Origin: Xiashengella succiniciproducens
Lineage (GTDB): Bacteria > Bacteroidota > Bacteroidia > Bacteroidales > Marinilabiliaceae
Direction of reading: 5' to 3'
Assembly (NCBI RefSeq): GCF_023674465.1
Contig: NZ_CP098400.1
Coordinates: forward strand, 1,240,001-1,304,000
Length of the DNA: 64,000 nt
A model generated the notes under the pieces. The model ran no database searches and was not told where the DNA came from. It saw only the letters and a program-made list of their open reading frames with translations. Shown here piece after piece: positions 16,034 to 49,057 of the stretch (positions are counted from its first letter, which is position 1; each line of letters starts with the position of its first letter). The translations under genes and the position numbers were made by a program.

Positions 16034-16672
16034 ATGAAGCTGCCTTAAGAAATTTGCGTAAAGAAAATCCGATTTGGAGCCGTCAAGAAATTCAGGCTGT
16101 CTGAGCGAAGCGAGTTTCCTGAATTTTAGGCGAGGGGCCGGATTCTTTGCATGATTTATTTCATTAGATGGGGGAGCAGCTGGCAAATCGTGGCATACTG
16201 CACATGAAGCAGCCTTAAGAAATCTGCGTAAAGAAAATCCGATTTGGAGCCGTTAAGAAATTCAGGCTGTCTGAGCGAAGCGAGTTTCCTGAATTTTAGG
16301 CGAGGGGCCGGATTCTTGGCATGATTTATTTCATTAGATGGGGGAGCAGTTGGCAAATCGTGGCATACTGCACATGAAGCAACCTTAAGAAATCTGCGTA
16401 AAGAAAATCCGATTTGGAGCCGTCAAGAAATTCAGGCTGTCTGAGCGAAGCGAGTTTCCTGAATTTTAGGCGAGAGGCCGGATTCTTGGTATGATTTATT
16501 TCTTCAGATGGGGGAGCAGTTGGCAAATCGAGGCATACTGCACATGAAGCTGCCTTAAGAAATTTGCGTAAAGAAAATCCGATTTGGAGCCGTTAAGAAA
16601 TTCAGGCTGTCTGAGCGAAGCGAGTTTCCTGAATTTTAGGCGCAAAGGAGGATTTTTAGCAAATTTATTTCA
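16034..16672. repeat. Tandem array of a 170-bp palindromic intergenic repeat (3.75 copies)
   Basis: Copies start at 16034, 16204, 16374 and 16544, exactly 170 bp apart. The first three are complete and differ by only a few bases; the fourth diverges after about 16642. Each holds a hairpin core with arms AAATTCAGG and CCTGAATTT (16088-16096 and 16118-16126 in copy 1) around a GAGCGAAGCGAG palindrome-like centre, nested in a looser outer pairing AAAATCCG/CGGATTCT. This resembles REP-type elements. The region 15958-16726 has no convincing gene: minus-strand frames of 66-92 codons exist in each copy, overlap end to end, lack ribosome sites and simply mirror the repeat. Confidence 0.9.
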
Positions 16673-36453: not shown

Positions 36454-39400
36454 ATGAAGAAGCGTTACAGGAATACAGCCTTTTATGTAGGAGTTACAGG
36501 AGGCTTTGCCTTTTTGGTGTATTGCCTGATTATAGCAGGCAGCAAACTGGAGGACGGGGGCTCAGTTGTATCGGTCGCTTCAGGCAATACTCCGTGGGCT
36601 GACTTTGTGCATTCTATCGCTTCTAATCTTGGGCATCCCCTTGCCCTTCTGCTTGCCCAGATAGTAACAATTATCCTGACAGCCCGTCTTTTGGGGTGGC
36701 TATGCAACAGGATAGGACAGCCTGCTGTAATCGGAGAGATAATAGCCGGTATCGTACTCGGTCCTTCACTTATAGGCTATTACTTCCCGGCCTTTAGTGA
36801 AGCCCTCTTTCCTGTTGAGTCGCTTGGCAACCTGCAATTTATAAGTCAGATAGGTCTGATCCTGTTTATGTTTATAATAGGCATGGAGCTGGACCTTAAG
36901 ATTTTGAAAAAGAAGGCAGGCGATGCTGTAATAGTTAGTCATGCAAGTATAGTAATACCCTTTGCCCTGGGTATGGCCTTGTCGTACTTTCTGTACGCCA
37001 ACTTTGCCCCTGAGGGAGTACGATTTTCATCCTTCGGACTGTTTCTGGGCATCTCGATGAGCGTAACAGCCCTTGACCTAAGTGGAAATGTGCTTTTTAA
37101 GAAGGATGGAAACTCCGACATTGCAACCTTTAGATACGGTTATGAATGTGCTGCCCCCTCAGCCGCAATTTCAAAAGTATCCCACAACAGCGTTTCCGTA
37201 TCGTGGAACAGCAACAGCAGTATTAGAGAGTATATTGTAAGTTACAGAAAAGAGAACGATTCAGAGTGGCAAGAAGTAACTACCAGCAACGTTGGCCTCA
37301 CCATCGATAATTTAGAACACAGCGTTCAATACGAATTATATGTCAGAGCATCTTGTGGCGACGCAAGCAGTAGTAATGAGCGCTTACTTCGGTTTAAAAC
37401 CGATCGTTTTGTAGATTACAGTTGTGGAGCAGGAGCTCCGAGGATAAGCTTCGAGAATCAAGATCCCTTACCTGCCCTACATCGCTTCGACGAGTTTAAA
37501 GCAGCCGATTTCTATATTGAAGTCACCGAGGTGAGTGGCACCCAAGGCGTTTTCTCAGGTCGCGGACTGGCCTCCATCCCCTTTCTCGAATTTCTTAAGT
37601 TTGAAGTATCTTTTAACGACATTACCATCAACACCGATCGGCAGATGATTGATGGGCACGTAGTATTTCTTCACGAAGAAGAAACCGGCAAAATCCCCGG
37701 TCGTAATATGGGTGTTGGAGGTTCGCAAGGAGCGGAGGGTTCACAAGAATTAAGTTTTGAAGAAGCCCTTAATGAGATTGCAGACCAGAAGGTGACAATT
37801 GATGAAGAAGTTGCTGACGTTAGCGTCAGCAACGGCAATGTAACTGTTGTTACCGAAAGCGGGCAGACCCAAAGTTATTTGGTAGGCGAGAATCAGACCC
37901 TCGCCATAGTAACCCCCGAGAGCATCGTTGTTGTTGATCAAGCCTCAGGGCAAGTATTCCAGGCACCTAACACCCCTCCCGGCAGTTCATCCAACGTGCG
38001 CACCCCATCTCAATCAGGCATTCATGGCTGTTTGGTAACCTTTAGGCCCTCCGCCACCCAACGCTTAGGTTTCGATGCCGTAGGCAACGGTGTAGTTAAG
38101 CCCAATAGCTACTTTTTGCGCGACCGCAATGGAGATACCGTTCCTTGGAAATCGCTCGAAGCAGGCAATACCGACTATGTTGCAATGTTAACCAATGGCG
38201 ATTGTCAGGCAGATAGTCTGCGCTTTATTCGTGAAAGCGGACTTTTAACCCCCACAACCCCGGGCCGCAACAACTCCCTTGAACTACTGCTTACCGGAGG
38301 TTTTCAAGGTCAGGAAGAGCGTCTGACCGTAGCAAGGGCCACTACAAATCATATAAATGACAGTACAAGTGAAGAAATTCTCACCGAAGCCGGAGTGTTG
38401 GGGCTGGTAAGCTACCAACGCATAACCCGTGATGTCTTTCTTATTCCCGTTAACGGAGCTTCCTTTCCAACGGCTTCCACGCAATTGTCCGATATCGAAA
38501 AGCGCCTCAATGAAATATACGGATCCGCTGTAATCAACTGGAATGTACATTTTGACGAGCCAATAGAAGTAGGCCGCATAAACGAGGCCGAATTTAAGGT
38601 AGAGGGTACCGCCATGCTGAGCAAGTACACCTCCGATATGAACAGAGTTATTCGCACCTACAAACGCAACCGCCCATCTGACGATAACAGCCTGTACCTG
38701 TTCTTTGTAGAGTTATCCGATTTGGGCACCAGTCGCAAAGGATTCATGCCCTTAGCGGGTAATTTCGGCTTTATATTTAACTTTAGTGCTTCTGACTTTG
38801 ACCTGTTGGCCCACGAGTTGGCTCATGGCGCCTTCAACCTTCGCCACACCTTCAGCGATAAAGCCCAGCACTATTTCCCAGTGCAACAAACCGCCAATCT
38901 TATGGACTATGCCGGCGGCACCGATCTGTGGAAATACCAATGGGATTTGATTCATAACCCGGAAAGCATACTCTTTAGCTGGGCGCAGGATGAGGAGGAG
39001 GGGGCTTATAGCCTACCTTGTTTAGGATGGTTTGATGATTGTGATGATGTACTGAAGATTTTAGAAACTTTCCGTAATGCCCGTATAAAAGGCAATCAGG
39101 TAAAAATAAACGGGCAAACGAAAATTGAGGAACGGATATTGATAGCAAATTCCATAAAAGTTGGAGATACAGACTATAAACGGATACGATTAATTTATAA
39201 GCCTAAGACAGAAGATTATACATTTAATCCGACCAAATATAGCTTTTATGACCAACAGTTTTTTGTGACAGATGGCTCTGTGGATTGGCAGCGAGGATTT
39301 GTTTACTATAAAGATAGTGAAGAGCTATTTAAAATACTGGTGGATGATGAAACATCCAAAATTGGGAAGCTGAAGGAATATTTGTTTGGCAAAGAGTACG

Positions 39401-40113
39401 ATGAAATAATACAAATATTTACAAATAATACAGTTTTAACCCCGGATGAAATTAGAGATGTGAGGGAACAAATTGCAATGTTAAAGGATGAAGACCAGAA
39501 GAAAGAACTCTTTTTGGAGTTGCAAACTAAGGTTCCTTATCACAATCAACGCAACAACGACCAAACGCAATATCTTGCAGACAGGATGTGCAATTTGACC
39601 TCGCAAGCCATGTGCCTTGAATACCTTGGTATTGCTTGCCCTGATGCCAATATGCAGTTTGAAGATTATTTGGAGCAGATACGGGAAAACAATAATTTCG
39701 GAGATAGAACTACACCGGATGCAAGACAGAAGATAACAGAGCACTTAGGAGCATGTTATCAATATAAAGAATTTAAAGGTACCTTTTCTGATAATAAAGA
39801 AAAAATTAAAGAAGTATTATTACCAAAATTAGAAACAGGTTGTTCGATAATGTTATCAGTTTGGCCTGGTTGCAAAGGACACCTTATCAGATTGCAAAGC
39901 ATAACCAACGAAGGCCTGATTGTTGATGATCCATATGGAAAAGTAAAGGGGAAAACCGATGGTTTTGATTGGAGGGAGGCTTGTAATAGTGGTGGTTATG
40001 ATACCAATTCAAATACATTTGAAGATACTAAGGGCAGCGATAATCTTTGGAAATGGTCGGATATACAGGATGTAACCCTTAAATATGTAGAAATTTATTG
40101 TACATGTAAATAA
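36454..40113 (+). CDS. Chimera: CPA2 antiporter N-terminus fused to a polymorphic-toxin-like protein
   Basis: A single open frame of 1219 codons made of two unrelated parts. Residues 1-206 are the start of a KefB-type cation/proton antiporter (helices, GQPAVIGEIIAGIVLGPSL, FIIGMELDLK), cut after MSVTA where such proteins continue FPVLARI. From L207 the sequence is a secreted effector-like protein: an FN3 domain (about 235-320), a long beta-rich region, a zincin-like block with HELAHGAFNLRH (H787, E788, H791, H798), and a lower-GC tip. The tip (from about 850) ends in a C39/papain-like domain with C1046 (RMCNLTSQAMCLEYLG), H1143 (KGHLI) and D1158/D1159. The toxin's own N-terminus and secretion signal are missing. 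A candidate immunity lipoprotein follows after 11 bp. Toxicity is inferred from architecture. Confidence 0.7.
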   Translation: MKKRYRNTAFYVGVTGGFAFLVYCLIIAGSKLEDGGSVVSVASGNTPWADFVHSIASNLGHPLALLLAQIVTIILTARLLGWLCNRIGQPAVIGEIIAGIVLGPSLIGYYFPAFSEALFPVESLGNLQFISQIGLILFMFIIGMELDLKILKKKAGDAVIVSHASIVIPFALGMALSYFLYANFAPEGVRFSSFGLFLGISMSVTALDLSGNVLFKKDGNSDIATFRYGYECAAPSAAISKVSHNSVSVSWNSNSSIREYIVSYRKENDSEWQEVTTSNVGLTIDNLEHSVQYELYVRASCGDASSSNERLLRFKTDRFVDYSCGAGAPRISFENQDPLPALHRFDEFKAADFYIEVTEVSGTQGVFSGRGLASIPFLEFLKFEVSFNDITINTDRQMIDGHVVFLHEEETGKIPGRNMGVGGSQGAEGSQELSFEEALNEIADQKVTIDEEVADVSVSNGNVTVVTESGQTQSYLVGENQTLAIVTPESIVVVDQASGQVFQAPNTPPGSSSNVRTPSQSGIHGCLVTFRPSATQRLGFDAVGNGVVKPNSYFLRDRNGDTVPWKSLEAGNTDYVAMLTNGDCQADSLRFIRESGLLTPTTPGRNNSLELLLTGGFQGQEERLTVARATTNHINDSTSEEILTEAGVLGLVSYQRITRDVFLIPVNGASFPTASTQLSDIEKRLNEIYGSAVINWNVHFDEPIEVGRINEAEFKVEGTAMLSKYTSDMNRVIRTYKRNRPSDDNSLYLFFVELSDLGTSRKGFMPLAGNFGFIFNFSASDFDLLAHELAHGAFNLRHTFSDKAQHYFPVQQTANLMDYAGGTDLWKYQWDLIHNPESILFSWAQDEEEGAYSLPCLGWFDDCDDVLKILETFRNARIKGNQVKINGQTKIEERILIANSIKVGDTDYKRIRLIYKPKTEDYTFNPTKYSFYDQQFFVTDGSVDWQRGFVYYKDSEELFKILVDDETSKIGKLKEYLFGKEYDEIIQIFTNNTVLTPDEIRDVREQIAMLKDEDQKKELFLELQTKVPYHNQRNNDQTQYLADRMCNLTSQAMCLEYLGIACPDANMQFEDYLEQIRENNNFGDRTTPDARQKITEHLGACYQYKEFKGTFSDNKEKIKEVLLPKLETGCSIMLSVWPGCKGHLIRLQSITNEGLIVDDPYGKVKGKTDGFDWREACNSGGYDTNSNTFEDTKGSDNLWKWSDIQDVTLKYVEIYCTCK
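38633..38945 (+). repeat. Direct repeat copy 1 of the zincin-block cassette (313 bp)
   Basis: Identical base for base to 40852-41164. It encodes about residues 727-831 of the chimera, including HELAHGAFNLRH. Similarity continues with scattered changes for about 60 bp to the right and then stops where the two tips diverge. Confidence 0.95.
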
Positions 40114-40851: not shown

Positions 40852-41164
40852 CCGATATGAACAGAGTTATTCGCACCTACAAACGCAACCGCCCATCTGA
40901 CGATAACAGCCTGTACCTGTTCTTTGTAGAGTTATCCGATTTGGGCACCAGTCGCAAAGGATTCATGCCCTTAGCGGGTAATTTCGGCTTTATATTTAAC
41001 TTTAGTGCTTCTGACTTTGACCTGTTGGCCCACGAGTTGGCTCATGGCGCCTTCAACCTTCGCCACACCTTCAGCGATAAAGCCCAGCACTATTTCCCAG
41101 TGCAACAAACCGCCAATCTTATGGACTATGCCGGCGGCACCGATCTGTGGAAATACCAATGGGA
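40852..41164 (+). repeat. Direct repeat copy 2 of the zincin-block cassette (313 bp)
   Basis: Perfect copy of 38633-38945, 2219 bp downstream. The first mismatch is C at 41165 against T at 38946. It starts the orphan cassette. Confidence 0.95.
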
Positions 41165-42782
41165 CTTGATTCATAACCCGGAAAGTATACTGTTTGCTTG
41201 GGCGCAAGATGAGGATGAGGGGGAATTTAAAGGAAACACACCGATAGAAAAAGTTGTTAATACCATAGAAATGTTAAGGTGTGGTTTTGTTTCAAACAGA
41301 AAAGTGAAATTTGAGAAAAACGTTTTCTTTTCGTGGCTAAAAGAATCTGTTACTGTCAGGGATTTCGATGGTTTATATGATGGCAATACATACAAGTATA
41401 TTCATATTCAACTATTAGATGACAGTAAACTCATAGAGTATCCTGCAGATTTACAATTAGCAGAGTCAGATAGTTATTTTAATTCTTTATTGAAATTGCC
41501 CAGAGGTGAAGTGCTAAAACTTGATTTTGGAGGATTAATAATTTTAGTAGATAAAGACAATGCCCAAAACTTATTGGAATATTTAACACCTACTGAGCAT
41601 CAGTATAAATTGCAACAGCGGCAATTTGTACAATCAATTGCTGATTTTTTTGATAAACAGTTTTATACAAGAGAAAAAGTTATAAATATTTTAAAAGTAT
41701 CTCCACAATGCCTGTATGAATCATTAACACAAGACCAACGATTAAGTTTATTATCACTGATCAATAACAACAGCAATATTCCTGAAACCGTTGAGAATAT
41801 TGTTATTGATATAATCCGGACAACCCCGGAAGACCAAATCGAATATCTTTTCAATAATTTATATTCCACCGGATTGTTGGCGTATTTTGATAGAGTAATG
41901 AATAACGTTGGGAGTAGTAATGATAATTACACAAGGTTTATCTATGAACTTTTAAAGCTATATTTAGCACGGTTTTCTGATAATTTAGATTGTTTTGAAG
42001 CGACGCCATGGGGGCAGTTGAATGTTGATAATCAGGTTCGGAGTTTTGGGAATTTAAATTATGTGTACGAAACGCCATTTTACTGGTGGCAAAAAGGGTG
42101 CAAAGTACCAACATGGCGATACGGAACCAGGGGGGTGTTTATTTCTGACCACAACACTTGTGGATATTTTAATAAAGAAAATGTTGAGATAGATCCTTTT
42201 GAGCCTGTTGTTATTTATTTTGAGGAGGATTTGTCATTTTATGAATTACCGCCTGAGCTGGAAAGCCGAATCGTGTCAATGCCAGCCTTTGTTTTACCTT
42301 GGTTGCGAAACGAGGCATCAAAAAAGGAAGGGATTCGATTAGCAGGTAATGCTATCACAATTGTGTCATCATTTGCAACACTAGGCTCCACTGGCGCAGT
42401 AGCTTCAGGAATGCGAGGGACTTTGATTAAAGCCCTAATATATATCAACAAAGTTGATGCGACTATAAAAATACTTCTAACCAACGAGGCCGTAAAAGAA
42501 AGTATTAGTAAGATTGGAGATGGGAAAGGTGTAGAGTTTCTTATATTATATGAAGATATTAGTGCTGGGTTGGGTCTTTTTTCACCTACCGTACATGGAC
42601 TTTTGGAAAAGAAATCTGCAGGAGATATTGCTGCCGATTATGTCTCATTGAGCAATGCATGGGAGTTAATAAAGAATGCTCCTGAAGTGAAGTCTAATTT
42701 ATCTTCGAAAGAGATTGAAAGCATAACAATGGATATTAATTCAATTTTAGAAATTTTAGAATATGAAGACATTGTTGAATAA
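40857..42782 (+). CDS. Orphan toxin cassette: repeated zincin block plus a different C-terminal tip
   Basis: A 641-codon frame that begins in the middle of the toxin-like protein: residues 1-105 repeat the HELAHGAFNLRH block (H59, E60, H63, H70), then an unrelated AT-rich sequence. The new part includes YWWQKGCKVPTWRYGTRG, ISDHNTCGYF, DPFEPVVIYF and a hydrophobic stretch AITIVSSFATLGSTGAVASG (near 500-520), a possible membrane-insertion segment; no toxin catalytic motif was recognised. There is no signal peptide and no good ribosome site. The frame is open back to the codon after the upstream TAA (40791-40793). This fits a silent reserve tip for recombination. Its last 20 bp overlap the next gene. 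Confidence 0.65.
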   Translation: MNRVIRTYKRNRPSDDNSLYLFFVELSDLGTSRKGFMPLAGNFGFIFNFSASDFDLLAHELAHGAFNLRHTFSDKAQHYFPVQQTANLMDYAGGTDLWKYQWDLIHNPESILFAWAQDEDEGEFKGNTPIEKVVNTIEMLRCGFVSNRKVKFEKNVFFSWLKESVTVRDFDGLYDGNTYKYIHIQLLDDSKLIEYPADLQLAESDSYFNSLLKLPRGEVLKLDFGGLIILVDKDNAQNLLEYLTPTEHQYKLQQRQFVQSIADFFDKQFYTREKVINILKVSPQCLYESLTQDQRLSLLSLINNNSNIPETVENIVIDIIRTTPEDQIEYLFNNLYSTGLLAYFDRVMNNVGSSNDNYTRFIYELLKLYLARFSDNLDCFEATPWGQLNVDNQVRSFGNLNYVYETPFYWWQKGCKVPTWRYGTRGVFISDHNTCGYFNKENVEIDPFEPVVIYFEEDLSFYELPPELESRIVSMPAFVLPWLRNEASKKEGIRLAGNAITIVSSFATLGSTGAVASGMRGTLIKALIYINKVDATIKILLTNEAVKESISKIGDGKGVEFLILYEDISAGLGLFSPTVHGLLEKKSAGDIAADYVSLSNAWELIKNAPEVKSNLSSKEIESITMDINSILEILEYEDIVE

Positions 42783-44991: not shown

Positions 44992-45234
44992 TTATTTTCC
45001 AAAAGCCAATTTAGTTCTGACGTTTTGTAACAATCCGTCAAGAGCGTATAATATGTGCTTCTTATCTTCATCCGGAAGGCTCTGAATCTCCACTACTCGT
45101 TTAATAATGGAATTATCCAGTTCGACGTTTGTTTTCCCGGTAAGATAGTCAAGAGAAACGCCCAAAGCATCCGCAATTTTGGTTGCAATGTCGATTGAAG
45201 GCTTTATCTCATCACGTTCATTGGGTAAAACGGT
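44992..45234 (-). pseudogene. C-terminal fragment of an XRE-family regulator
   Basis: An open minus-strand frame of 80 codons ends at TTA 44992. It reads like the second half of an HTH_3 regulator: NERDEIKPSIDIATKIADAL, GVSLDYLTGKTNVELDN, then IIKRVVEIQSLPDEDKKHIL. The first helix-turn-helix half is absent; homology stops just beside the IS21-type left end at 45241. The missing half is not on the far side of that element, so the insertion was accompanied by a deletion or an older truncation. Confidence 0.7.
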
Positions 45235-45458
45235 TCAAAATGTGCCACTAATTTCGGCCAAAATGTGCCACGAACCAAGGCCAGATTTTGGAAAAATCGC
45301 AACAGTAATGCCCCTTTCTGTTTCGGTTCGAACTGTGCCAATTATTTCGGTTCGAATTGTGCCATTTTGGAGAGCCGCTTAAGGCTCACGATTACGGTTT
45401 GATTTGTGCCAGTTTGAGAGATCAAGTTTAATTTTCTATATCGCCATAAAAAAGCGAT

Positions 45459-47006
45459 ATGGCACACATTCTTGATCTAATGGAACTAAAGCAAATTTTA
45501 AGGTTGCACATGGATGGCTTAAGTAATCGTCGTATATCTGATACTCTTGGCATTCATCGCAACACTATTAACAGTTATGTAAGTCAGTTTAAGGCTAGTA
45601 AGCATGGCATAGAAGAACTCCTAAAGCTATCGGATTATGAACTTGCCCAGTTGTTCCCGGGCCACACCACCATAAAGAATCCTCGCTTTGATGAACTGAT
45701 GCAGTTCTTCACCAATATGCATGCAGAACCAAATCATCCTGGATTTACGCTACTACATCATTACTCTGAATATAAGTCGTCAGCTAAAGAGCCATACAGT
45801 TACACTCAATTTGTCGAGCACTACCGAAGGAAGTACTCTAAAGAGAAGGGCTCGATGAAACTTCCCCATAAGCCCGGTCATGAACTCTACATTGACTTCG
45901 CCGGCAAGAAGCTTAAAATAGTTGATAAGCATACCGGGGAAATCCAGGCAGTAGAGGTGTTTGTGGCTATTTTGCCCTGCAGTCAGTACACTTACGTTGA
46001 GGCCTGTCCCGACCAAACCATGGAATCCTTAATAAAGTGCACTGCCAATGCCTTGTCATACTTTGGGGGCGTACCCCAGGCCATTGTATCATATAATCTA
46101 AAGTCAGCAGTTACTAAAGCCAGTAAATACGAGCCTCGTATCAATCGCTCATTTTTAGATTTTGCGAGTCATTACAACAGCGTAGTAAATCCGGCTCGTG
46201 GATATGCCCCGCAGGATAAAGCATTGGTGGAAAATGCCGTAAACTTATCCTACCGGCGAATTTATTCCCCCATACGCAACATGACCTTCTTTTCTCTGGA
46301 TGACCTCAATAAAGAGATCCAAAAACACCTTGTAGGCTATAATAACATGTTGTAGCAACGACGCTCCTGCAGTAGACGTGAGCTCTTCCAAACATTAGAG
46401 CGGCAGCACCTTAAGCCGCTTCCTCCAACGCGATATGAAATAAAAGGATATCGCCGGGCTAAGGTCCAAAAAACTGGATATGTTTATTTCTCTCCGGACA
46501 ACAATTACTACAGCGTTCCCTATCGTTATATCGGTAAAAGCACTCAAATCCACTATACCGGCTCGAGTGTTGAGGTCTTTTACAATCAACAGCGTATTGC
46601 TTCCCACCAAAGAAACCCTTCTCCAGGCGAGTACAACACCGATAAAAGCCACTTGAGTAGCACACACAAAGCCTATCTTGAGTGGAGCCCTGAATTTTTT
46701 AAGAACAAGGCACTAAAGCATGGAGTTAACGTCCATGATTTTGTATCCAGTTTGTTTGATAATCAATCTTATCCCGAAGTTATTTACAAGAGAGCCATGG
46801 GCGTAATCCAATTGCATCGGATCTATGGTACCGAAAGACTCAACAACGCTTGTAAATTGGCTCTTGATGTCGGCATACACTCCTATGGACGACTTAAAAA
46901 CATCCTTAAGAATAAACGGGACGTTTTTGTTGAGGAGCCGGATAATCAAAGAGCATCCCATATACCCACTCATAGCAACTTAAGAGGGGCAACTAACTAT
47001 AAATAA
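45459..47006 (+). pseudogene. istA: IS21 transposase IstA, interrupted by an in-frame amber codon
   Basis: Two open segments, 45459-46352 and 46356-47006, are in one frame and separated only by TAG at 46353-46355. Together they make about 515 codons, the normal IstA length. The N-terminal helix-turn-helix (LRLHMDGLSNRRISDTLGIH), the DDE core start (GHELYIDFAGKKLKIVD, VFVAILPCSQYTYVEA), and the C-terminal part QRRSCSRRELFQ, RYEIKGYRRAKVQ, FSPDNNYYSVPYRYIG are all present. The stop falls after NNML, between the catalytic core and the C-terminal domain. No frameshift is needed. Likely an inactive copy unless the amber is suppressed. Confidence 0.85.
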
Positions 47007-47016
47007 ACCAATAAAC

Positions 47017-47754
47017 ATGAACAACAATCAAACAGTAGAAAAACTTCGCCATATGCGAATCAATGCTATGGCAGACCTGCATTTACAGCACGTCAAGAAT
47101 AATCAGTTAGGCACTTTGACTGCGGATGAATACCTGGCCTTACTTACCGATCATGAATGGGAAGAGCGTCAGAATAAGAAAATCAACAGACTTATTAAAC
47201 ATGCCGGGTTCAGACAAAAAGCCACACTCGCAGACATCGATTACAGTGCCACCAGAACGCTTGATAAAAACATGTTCCAACGGCTGGCCACACTTGATTT
47301 TATTAAGAGAAACGAGAACGTTATAATAACCGGGTTAACAGGGGTTGGAAAGAGCTTCCTTGCTCAGGCTATTGGCCATCAAGCCTGCATGATGGAATAC
47401 AAGGTTCTTTACTCAATTACGTCCAGATTATTTAAGCGCCTTAAATTATCAAGGATGGATGGAACATATATGAATGATATTAATAAATTAGCCAAAACGG
47501 ATGTCCTTATACTAGATGATTTTGGGCTACAAGCTTTTGACAAGCAGGACCGTGAGTCGCTTATGGATATAATAGAAGACAGACACAGTAAGAAAACAAC
47601 TATTGTGGCTTCACAAATACCAGTCTCGGTTTGGTACGACATTATTGGAGAAGGAACGATTGCAGATGCAATACTCGACCGACTGGTAAACGCCTCTCAT
47701 CGAATCGACCTAAATGGACCCTCATTAAGAAAGGGGATTTTAGCAAGCGAATAG
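47017..47754 (+). CDS. istB: IS21 helper ATPase IstB
   Basis: AAA+ ATPase related to DnaC/DnaA that helps IstA choose targets. The 245-residue protein has Walker A GLTGVGKSFLAQAIG (near 108-118), Walker B VLILDDFGLQ (near 165) and the sensor-type ending TIADAILDRLVNASHRIDL. It starts 11 bp after istA, as usual for the family. Confidence 0.93.
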   Translation: MNNNQTVEKLRHMRINAMADLHLQHVKNNQLGTLTADEYLALLTDHEWEERQNKKINRLIKHAGFRQKATLADIDYSATRTLDKNMFQRLATLDFIKRNENVIITGLTGVGKSFLAQAIGHQACMMEYKVLYSITSRLFKRLKLSRMDGTYMNDINKLAKTDVLILDDFGLQAFDKQDRESLMDIIEDRHSKKTTIVASQIPVSVWYDIIGEGTIADAILDRLVNASHRIDLNGPSLRKGILASE

Positions 47755-47981
47755 CATTTTTTTTTGTACTATTGCACCATCTCTCAGACTGGCACATTTT
47801 GGCCGAAATGCCTGGCACAAATAACACCGAAATACTCACTCTATTTTGATTTGTGCTGATAACTGGTTGATAAGTACTTGATTAATTGGTCATATTTAGT
47901 TAGTTTTCCATTACTCTCGAATTGAATATACGTATTTGAAATAGTGGTATGATACTCTTGTAAATGTTAAAAATGTTAAAT

Positions 47982-48015
47982 GGTTAGCATCTAGTTAACC
48001 TATAGCTTAATTTTG
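47982..48015 (+). promoter_or_regulatory. Candidate operator and -7 element of the XRE/SecB-like operon
   Basis: GGTTA (47982-47986) and TAACC (47996-48000) form an interrupted palindrome just before TAATTTTG (48008-48015), a TAnnTTTG match. Such a site would suit autoregulation by the downstream XRE protein. No TTG stands at -33. Confidence 0.35.
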
Positions 48016-48016
48016 C

Positions 48017-48124
48017 ATGAAAAGAAAAGCAGAAGTAATTCTTTCCTCAAAAGATGGCAGACGTAACATTGCGATCGATCAAGATAATCATGAATCAATC
48101 ATGAAATTTCTGAAAGAAGATTGA
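48017..48124 (+). CDS. Very small ORF (35 codons) before the XRE gene
   Basis: Reads MKRKAEVILSSKDGRRNIAI and ends FLKED, highly charged, 18 bp before the XRE gene. It sits where a toxin gene would be in a toxin-antitoxin-chaperone operon but is too short and matches no toxin I know. Its ATG lies only 2 nt past the candidate -7 element, so a transcript from that promoter would not include it. Confidence 0.3.
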   Translation: MKRKAEVILSSKDGRRNIAIDQDNHESIMKFLKED

Positions 48125-48142
48125 TTAAAAAAGTGGCAGGTT

Positions 48143-48580
48143 ATGAGTACGAAATTGAATAAGCCTAATAATCTAAAGGAGAAGTTTGATGCACTCTTTA
48201 ACAGTATCCCTGAAAAGGACAAACTTGATATTGATGCTAAGGTGTTGATGTTCCGCTTTTTAGAAATAGTAGAAGAGGAACGTGAGAAGAGGGACATGAA
48301 CAGAAAGGATCTGGCTGATATTTTGGGAGTTAGACCTGCTTTTGTCTCACAGCTTTTTAATGGGAACAAACTTCTGAACCTTGTTCATATGGCAAAACTT
48401 CAAAAGGCATTTGGATTTGAATTTGAAGTTAGAAATGGAAATGCGAAAGTTCAGATAGATGACTTCATTCCAAAAGGAGATGGTAAGGGTGTTTGGGTAT
48501 ATAAACCATTTGCTAAACCTGACTATGAGAAAAAAGAGGTGTTGCCTGAGACAGGAGAGTGTTTTAACATAGTTGCATAA
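48143..48580 (+). CDS. XRE-family HTH protein, HigA-like antitoxin with aromatic C-terminal extension
   Basis: A 145-residue protein: a helical N-terminus, a lambda-repressor-type HTH at about 51-80 (MNRKDLADILGVRPAFVSQL), and a 45-residue tail with GKGVWVYKPFAKPDYEKK. The SecB-like gene follows after 12 bp. In toxin-antitoxin-chaperone systems the antitoxin carries a C-terminal chaperone-addiction segment rich in aromatic residues that SecB-like partners bind; this tail is of that kind. No toxin gene is beside it. The DNA-binding fold is clear; the antitoxin role is inferred. Confidence 0.7.
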   Translation: MSTKLNKPNNLKEKFDALFNSIPEKDKLDIDAKVLMFRFLEIVEEEREKRDMNRKDLADILGVRPAFVSQLFNGNKLLNLVHMAKLQKAFGFEFEVRNGNAKVQIDDFIPKGDGKGVWVYKPFAKPDYEKKEVLPETGECFNIVA

Positions 48581-48592
48581 GATTTTATGTAG

Positions 48593-49057
48593 TTGAGTAT
48601 GGAAGCGAAAGAATCTCCAATTAAGCTTTTAAGGTTTGTTGTTTTGGGCATGGAATTTAGGTTTATTCCTCCTTCAAAGCAGAATAAATCTAAATCACCT
48701 GATTTTTTCTTTCAAGACTATGCAATTGACATCGATTTCTCACATAGTGCAGTGGATGAGGAGCAATTCTTCGTATTTGCAAAGATTGGGGTGAATAATT
48801 CTAGTAGACCAAAACACGGTTACAAAATATTTATTGAGGGAGGAGCATCATTTTCAATTCCAAAACAAGCAGATCTGGATGAAAACATTACTAAAAACCT
48901 TAAGTATTTTTCTTCAGTTAATATAGTAATAGGTTATTTGAGGGCAGCAATCAACACTCTGACTGCCTCTGCACCTTTGGGGCCATATTTATTACCACCA
49001 ATAGATATGCAGGATTTGATCAAGCGTAAATCTCAGAGCCCATCTGAAAGAGAATAG
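48593..49057 (+). CDS. SecB-like chaperone
   Basis: A 154-residue protein of SecB-like fold: beta strands DFFFQDYAIDIDFSHS and EQFFVFAKIGVNN, then the characteristic helical and loop end YLRAAINTLTASAPLGPYLLPPIDMQDLI, which parallels the ISNLTxxGGFPPLxLPPINF region of SecB. It lies 12 bp after the XRE gene in the same operon, away from any secretion genes, as in SecB-type chaperones dedicated to toxin-antitoxin pairs. Confidence 0.7.
   Translation: MSMEAKESPIKLLRFVVLGMEFRFIPPSKQNKSKSPDFFFQDYAIDIDFSHSAVDEEQFFVFAKIGVNNSSRPKHGYKIFIEGGASFSIPKQADLDENITKNLKYFSSVNIVIGYLRAAINTLTASAPLGPYLLPPIDMQDLIKRKSQSPSERE

Follow-up and report, generated by a model that had tools for sequence, protein, structure and literature searches.

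Organization of the locus

The window analysed here is a 64,000-nucleotide stretch of a 3.1-Mb genome (single contig, completeness 99.99). On its forward strand, between positions 48017 and 49057, it carries a 35-codon frame followed by a gene for an XRE/HigA-like protein and then by a gene for a SecB-like protein. The features assigned to this locus and its immediate surroundings are listed below.

45222–47838, + strand: adjacent IS21-type element, outside the operon (PF01695 IstB, E 2.4e-57; inverted repeats 76% complementary)
47995–48010, + strand: near-palindromic element TTAACCTATAGCTTAA, putative XRE autoregulatory operator (recurrence upstream of the relatives' toxins)
48008–48015, + strand: TAATTTTG, resembling the Bacteroidota -7 promoter element (weak evidence; in some, not all relatives)
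48017–48124, + strand: N-terminal toxin remnant, codons 1–34, plus one codon and a stop (tblastn, toxin profile)
48121–48162, + strand: C-terminal toxin remnant LIKKVAGYEYEIE-stop, in another frame and overlapping the antitoxin start (register as in relatives)
48143–48580, + strand: XRE/HigA-like antitoxin, 145 aa (HTH_3, E 1.1e-7)
48467–48532, + strand: putative chaperone-addiction (ChAD) segment, antitoxin residues 109–130 (conserved island)
48599–49057, + strand: SecB-like chaperone, 152 aa from ATG (PF02556, E 1.4e-5; predicted fold)

A first-pass annotation of the sequence had read the second and third genes as the antitoxin–chaperone half of a toxin–antitoxin–chaperone (TAC) system, and profile matches of both products at these positions bear this out. 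The XRE protein matches HTH_3 (PF01381) with 32.3 bits against a cut-off of 23, while the SecB-like protein matches PF02556 with 25.5 bits, just under the cut-off of 26. The AlphaFold2 model of the latter (pLDDT 85.3) is matched by Foldseek to E. coli SecB (E 3.6e-8) and to the M. tuberculosis Rv1957–ChAD complex (E 6.3e-6). Its gene had been placed 12 bp behind the antitoxin, a distance that holds when it is counted from the TTG at 48593; the likelier start, however, is the ATG at 48599, 18 bp behind, since this codon aligns with the starts in the two closest relatives. Likewise, the IS21 element previously described as ending 200 bp upstream does adjoin the locus, but, with its terminal inverted repeat finishing around 47838, it stays about 156 bp clear of TTAACCTATAGCTTAA and thus leaves the operon uninterrupted. 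The IS21 element itself looks broken, with istA (45459–47006) split in two frames (298 and 117 aa) and istB intact.

The genome belongs to one genus with three others, whose inferred identities are Geofilum rhodophaeum HF401 (G021), G. rubicundum JCM 15548 (G022) and the Marinilabiliaceae metagenome-assembled genome UBA5488 (G023). The window antitoxin shares 71% identity with that of G. rhodophaeum and 55% with that of UBA5488, and the SecB-like proteins of the window and UBA5488 are 56% identical. Conservation of the antitoxin is high in an island of its C-terminal tail, where 18 of the 22 residues at positions 109–130 are invariant among the window, G. rhodophaeum and UBA5488, as against 35 of 67 at positions 31–97 and 1 of 11 at positions 98–108. 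Of 12 antitoxins accompanied by SecB, 8 have a tryptophan in the tail, as against 1 of 9 antitoxins without SecB (Fisher p 0.024, kinship uncorrected). Both observations support assignment of this aromatic island as a putative chaperone-binding segment. In the M. tuberculosis TAC system, the ChAD peptide is described as contacting the chaperone through W108, R110 and Y114 (PMC6377645).

That system, HigB1-HigA1-SecB-TA (Rv1955–Rv1957), is a close parallel in its organization, having the same order of toxin, XRE antitoxin and SecB-like gene. It also resembles the present locus in the predicted fold of the relatives' toxin (Z 9.5), in that of the window chaperone (E 6.3e-6) and in an antitoxin C-terminal tail with tryptophan and tyrosine. 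It differs in that the window is without a toxin, in that the sequences are far apart and in the tail motif, the M. tuberculosis ChAD peptide being given as EVPTWHRLSSYRG (PMC6377645). The E. coli systems HigBAC, described as an anti-phage TAC (PMC11980606), and CmdTAC, also an anti-phage TAC, have a SecB-like third gene in common with the window. CmdT is reported to be an ADP-ribosyltransferase (PMC11618068), whereas the toxin slot of UBA5488 holds a protein with a predicted RelE/HigB fold. The window SecB-like protein also matches the PADLOC profile PD-T4-9_C (E 6.4e-6); we take PD-T4-9 to be CmdTAC. Antitoxin–chaperone loci in which SecB adjoins an antitoxin alone, without a toxin, were noted by Sala and co-workers (PMC4257090); to these the window adds a lost toxin, its remnants and an operator-like element, all traced in the DNA. 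No report on Geofilum together with toxin–antitoxin systems was found in the literature searched.

The SecB-like gene is the sole SecB-family match found in its own genome. Queried with the UBA5488 chaperone, 7 of 295 genomes of the order gave a match at E <= 1e-6, and most of these relatives therefore do without a close version. SecB-like loci without an XRE gene among the listed frames occur in three genomes (G339, G250 and G147). SecB-like genes without XRE were seen at loci L029, L030 and L031, from three genomes of one genus, with a glutaminyl-tRNA synthetase-like gene (by eye) nearby and a small conserved gene (about 80 aa) ahead of them.

The toxin of related loci and its remnants in the window

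In UBA5488, a complete toxin gene of 131 aa precedes the orthologous XRE and SecB-like genes, and the order toxin-XRE-SecB is also found in other genera. The search for the gene upstream of such pairs, proposed with the first annotation, thus leads to a complete toxin in UBA5488 and beyond the genus; a toxin is far from absent among homologous loci, being complete in six of the nine loci of this antitoxin family found outside the genus in the order sample. The 35-codon frame of the window is 56% identical to the UBA5488 toxin over 34 aa (tblastn), and it is matched by a toxin profile at E 2e-8 (a value for a small ORF set) over profile positions 1–35 of 133. This profile was made from 17 rows, two of them identical and 16 distinct, all of which are full-length toxins of other loci. 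Judged by its sequence, the frame is homologous to the toxin N-terminus and is not a chance reading frame.

The short frame is indeed present in the toxin slot, as first described, but it is not alone there, for the C-terminal end of the toxin follows it up to 48162. By itself this second remnant, LIKKVAGYEYEIE-stop, gives a weak match (E 2.1); the window antitoxin, however, starts at an ATG within the Y-x-Y codons of the toxin, and its register there agrees with that of the relatives. From the start codon of the toxin to that of the antitoxin, the distance measures 373 nt in UBA5488, 209 nt in G. rhodophaeum and 126 nt in the window, which corresponds to a net loss relative to UBA5488 of 164 nt in G. 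rhodophaeum and 247 nt in the window, both of them frame-shifting. The difference in spacing between UBA5488 and the window indicates that a frame-shifting deletion took out the middle of the toxin gene, leaving the first two strands and the first helix of the toxin model and removing the strands at residues 70–104. Short direct repeats within the gene could in principle have bounded this deletion, a course compatible with the UBA5488 sequence, though that sequence may differ from the true ancestral one. An HTH antitoxin adjoining a SecB-like gene is present in the window, while a toxin gene in the operon is present in UBA5488 and other relatives and missing here. Since only the two toxin ends remain, the window locus is classed as a toxin-deleted derivative rather than a working TAC, and of the possibilities raised at the outset, loss of the toxin is the one that both the remnants and the complete toxin before orthologous XRE-SecB pairs support.

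The fold of the UBA5488 toxin was predicted from an alignment of three rows from related loci, and the best model has a pLDDT of 85.6 and a pTM of 0.81 (the other four models range from 74.2 down to 35.0). Foldseek alone gave nothing significant for this model (best E 0.11, HigB2). When the top Foldseek chains were realigned with VIA-align, the best Z values were 9.7, 9.5 and 9.4, with 11 chains at Z >= 8, and toxins of the RelE/HigB/YoeB/YafQ/ParE type make up nearly all of the rows listed, to about 41. A toxin–antitoxin module of S. pneumoniae, presumably HigBA, scored 9.7, HigB1 of M. tuberculosis, the toxin of the model TAC, 9.5 and RelE 7.6. According to the aligner, models that lack a clear match typically reach a best Z of 7–8, and so the support for a toxin fold is good but not overwhelming; at that strength, the predicted fold places the UBA5488 toxin in the RelE/ParE (BECR-fold) superfamily, in the HigB group.

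Profile searches largely pass this toxin family by. Gp49 (PF05973), a Pfam family of HigB/RelE-type toxins with which the superfamily is shared by predicted fold, is matched, weakly, by 4 of the 17 toxin rows at E <= 1 (best 4.2e-5), whereas the other 13, the closest toxin included, have no Gp49 match at that threshold. There were no NCBIfam toxin models among the matches of the 17 rows, no match of the toxin in sequence searches of solved structures and none of the UBA5488 toxin to PADLOC profiles at E <= 1. A toxin family of Bacteroidota TAC and TA modules that is mostly missed by the curated profiles searched should be useful for finding such modules. Beyond cellular genomes, a tblastn search of plasmids and phages with the UBA5488 toxin gave no match, and a scan of viral contigs gave two partial relatives (L065 and L066).

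A partner toxin elsewhere in the window's own genome was considered and set aside, as the family profile matched the remnant only and the two Gp49 toxins of that genome are already paired, each with an HTH-type partner (by eye). Some related modules differ in composition. At loci L045, L046 and L048 the family is represented by a two-gene toxin-XRE pair without a SecB-like frame and without the tryptophan of the antitoxin tail, and these pairs offer a natural comparison for chaperone addiction gained or lost. At three other loci (L047 2257–2643, L052 2311–2700 and L053 640–1029), a gene of 128–129 aa follows related toxin-XRE pairs; it is unlike SecB by eye and is possibly a different third component.

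The operator-like element and the recurrence of toxin loss

Upstream of the 35-codon frame, the element TTAACCTATAGCTTAA begins 22 bp and stops 7 bp from the ATG. It is exact in the window and in G. rhodophaeum and has one mismatch in UBA5488. With up to three mismatches, 17 of 19 loci have it in the 150 bp that precede the toxin or toxin remnant, the two in which it was not found upstream at this threshold being L052 and L053. Among 500 shuffles per locus, none was as good in 14 of the 17 loci, and 1, 2 and 6 were as good in the other three. Because the motif was chosen after the window and loci L008, L009 and L044 had been viewed, the independent part of this count is 13 of the 15 other loci.

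Within its own genome, the element is found once at 0–1 mismatches, at its own operon, and at two mismatches it is found at one further place, as against one for a backwards control pattern. As a probe of the order, a degenerate form matched 17 of 393 genomes, compared with 20 matches for the backwards control by a count of those listed, so that the element is no probe by itself. The four exact-consensus sites (in G000, which is the genome of the window, G083, G316 and G387) nevertheless all lie at loci of this family, and among ten previously unknown sites, one (G179) precedes an XRE gene of the family. An operator-like sequence kept across genera is useful for finding such modules. The overlapping segment TAATTTTG may be likened to what we take to be the Bacteroidota -7 promoter element, TAnnTTTG. 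Neither sigma-70 promoters (4 against a shuffle mean of 4.7) nor terminators (0 against 0.9) were found above shuffles in scans for these signals.

A first scan of genome contigs with the window antitoxin as query gave no match. The antitoxin query later identified 5 of 71 genomes of the taxonomic family, the window's own included, and an antitoxin profile, which is independent of the toxin, identified 12 of 393 genomes of the order. Two weak antitoxin matches (G120 and G271) were left out of the count; in G120, the XRE gene and a weak SecB-like gene (E 0.0014) lie behind a 183-aa gene without a toxin-profile match. In the ten remaining loci of the order sample, the toxin is complete in six (G426, G076, G387, G136, G239 and G125) and broken in four (G000, G316, G083 and G179). 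The toxin of G316 has one in-frame stop, that of G083 has lost its N-terminal half and that of G179 is reduced to a 23-codon frame seen by eye, the profile giving no detection. Several of these genomes are drafts or metagenome-assembled, and so the single stop of G316 could be an error. As G316, G083 and G179 belong to other families, their losses are separate from that in the window.

The search of the taxonomic family adds the complete UBA5488 locus and three broken ones. In G. rhodophaeum, 65 codons of the toxin frame are left. In G. rubicundum, the toxin N-terminus is gone and a further deletion, out of frame, removed the tail of the antitoxin together with the first half of SecB. In G053, only the C-terminal end of the toxin is found, behind the element; its antitoxin gene lies in two pieces at the ends of two contigs, separated by an insertion or by the assembly, and the second contig carries an apparently whole SecB-like gene. 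Overall, the toxin is broken in 7 of the 14 antitoxin loci sampled, and the element is kept in 6 of these 7, G. rubicundum being without it. The remnant frames measure 35, 65 and 23 codons, and no N-terminal remnant was found in G. rubicundum or G053. The window keeps 34 N-terminal toxin codons and G. rhodophaeum 64; the window deletion could have grown from one like that of G. rhodophaeum, a course that the sequences would fit as they would independent deletions. G. rhodophaeum has a second, separate HigB/HigA-like pair (L008 5170–5827, by eye), which lies about 2 kb upstream of its toxin-less locus.

When the window is compared with G. rhodophaeum, the antitoxin has a pN of 0.150 and the chaperone one of 0.148, at a saturated pS of about 0.71. 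The 34 remnant codons give a pN of 0.231 and a pS of 0.709, which implies that most of the divergence of the remnant arose under constraint and, in turn, that loss of the toxin followed the split of the window's lineage from that of G. rhodophaeum or that the leader frame itself is constrained. Synonymous sites are saturated for dating of the loss by dN/dS, and the relative-rate comparison covers 33–34 codons. In that comparison, the window remnant is closer than the UBA5488 toxin to four relatives (identities of 0.53 and 0.41 to G426, 0.47 and 0.35 to G076, 0.41 and 0.32 to GH45, 0.50 and 0.38 to G716), equally close to two (0.29 for both to G239, 0.15 for both to G387) and further from two (0.27 and 0.30 to G125, 0.18 and 0.24 to G136). 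Between the window and G. rhodophaeum, identity is 0.59 in the remnant, 0.71 in the antitoxin and 0.70 in the chaperone, whereas in three close complete pairs (G426, G076 and GH45) the same toxin codons reach 0.62–0.68 and the antitoxin 0.37–0.47. The low value of the remnant could reflect a relaxed remnant beside a constrained antitoxin and chaperone. This evidence on age, from 34 codons, is mixed; it fits a fairly recent loss, after the split from G. rhodophaeum, which would mean that retention of the other genes need not imply selection.

Probable decay of a TAC module and the alternatives

In the complete module, the XRE antitoxin would bind the 16-bp element shortly before the toxin's start codon and repress the operon. 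By way of its aromatic C-terminal tail, it would depend on the SecB-like protein for folding and for protection from proteases, and the antitoxin so stabilized would block a toxin that presumably cuts translated mRNA as an RNase. In such addictive arrangements, loss of the antitoxin or the chaperone first would free the toxin, and decay must therefore pass through a toxin-less antitoxin–chaperone stage. Given the homology of the remnants, the structure of the deletion, the conservation of the element and the predicted folds, the window locus is very probably a TAC module that lost its toxin by an internal, frame-shifting deletion while its element, antitoxin and chaperone stayed intact. The best reading is that of a decaying TAC at the toxin-first stage imposed by addiction, and mainly one of ordinary decay, though toxin loss recurs in several related lineages. 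The genus would then display successive stages, with UBA5488 complete, the window and G. rhodophaeum toxin-less and G. rubicundum further broken: a compact decay series of a chaperone-linked TA module in which the toxin goes first, as addiction predicts. Natural toxin-less pairs of this kind also make the antitoxin's dependence on its chaperone testable without toxicity.

The strong constraint on antitoxin and chaperone, together with the exact element, would also fit continued use. Selection could be retaining the toxin-less pair as an antidote to toxins of this family that arrive with other DNA or are released from related modules, a form of anti-addiction that we consider unlikely here. It would account for the intact antitoxin, chaperone and element in the window and G. 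rhodophaeum, with their low pN/pS, for the persistence of the element in all but one of the toxin-broken loci and for a remnant that has diverged more than the antitoxin and chaperone, the reverse of what is seen in the three close complete pairs. An anti-addiction model has been described as established for ccd (PMC2654758), and orphan antitoxins are reported to be common in Klebsiella (PMC7192599). Yet pS is saturated, and measured against the four closer outgroups the remnant has diverged no further than the complete UBA5488 toxin, so that the loss may have come too late for retention to be demonstrated. The plasmid and phage search gave no relative of the UBA5488 toxin and hence revealed no carrier for such a threat, and G. 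rubicundum went on to lose its antitoxin tail and half of SecB.

Conceivably, though this seems quite unlikely, the toxin gene has repeatedly been cut to a short leader frame (35, 65 and 23 codons in three genomes) between a conserved operator and the antitoxin start because the operator, the leader start and the toxin–antitoxin overlap are needed to express an antitoxin, with or without the chaperone, that is retained as a stand-alone antidote. If true, this would amount to a convergent turning of toxins into translational leaders and to a new evolutionary end state for such modules.

It is very unlikely that the SecB-like gene is kept as a general export chaperone with the antitoxin hitch-hiking. 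Its standing as the only SecB match found in its genome would suit such a role, as would the account that four TAC chaperones, when overexpressed, can replace E. coli SecB (PMC5105189); the gene is, however, still tied to an antitoxin that has a conserved tail island. Repurposing of the XRE protein as a transcription regulator of other genes is highly improbable: its HTH and the element are intact, but the only site at 0–1 mismatches in the 3.1-Mb genome is at its own operon. The proposal that the 35-codon frame is a new small toxin, to which its ATG, its place behind the operator-like element and the 65-codon relative in G. rhodophaeum lend some color, is scarcely credible, as its match to the 131-aa toxin stops after the N-terminal strands and first helix, its length is not conserved between genomes and the toxin C-terminus follows directly behind it, out of frame.

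Signs of rearrangement and repetition were also observed elsewhere in the window. The frame at 36454–40113 (+ strand) begins as a Na+/H+ exchanger (profile positions 1–137 of 375 only) and then turns into fibronectin III and C39-like peptidase sequence, so that it looks like a rearrangement chimera; a portion of its later sequence recurs at the start of 40857–42782. Between two minus-strand genes, positions 16034–16642 hold a tandem array with a 170-bp unit in 3.6 copies (96% matches).
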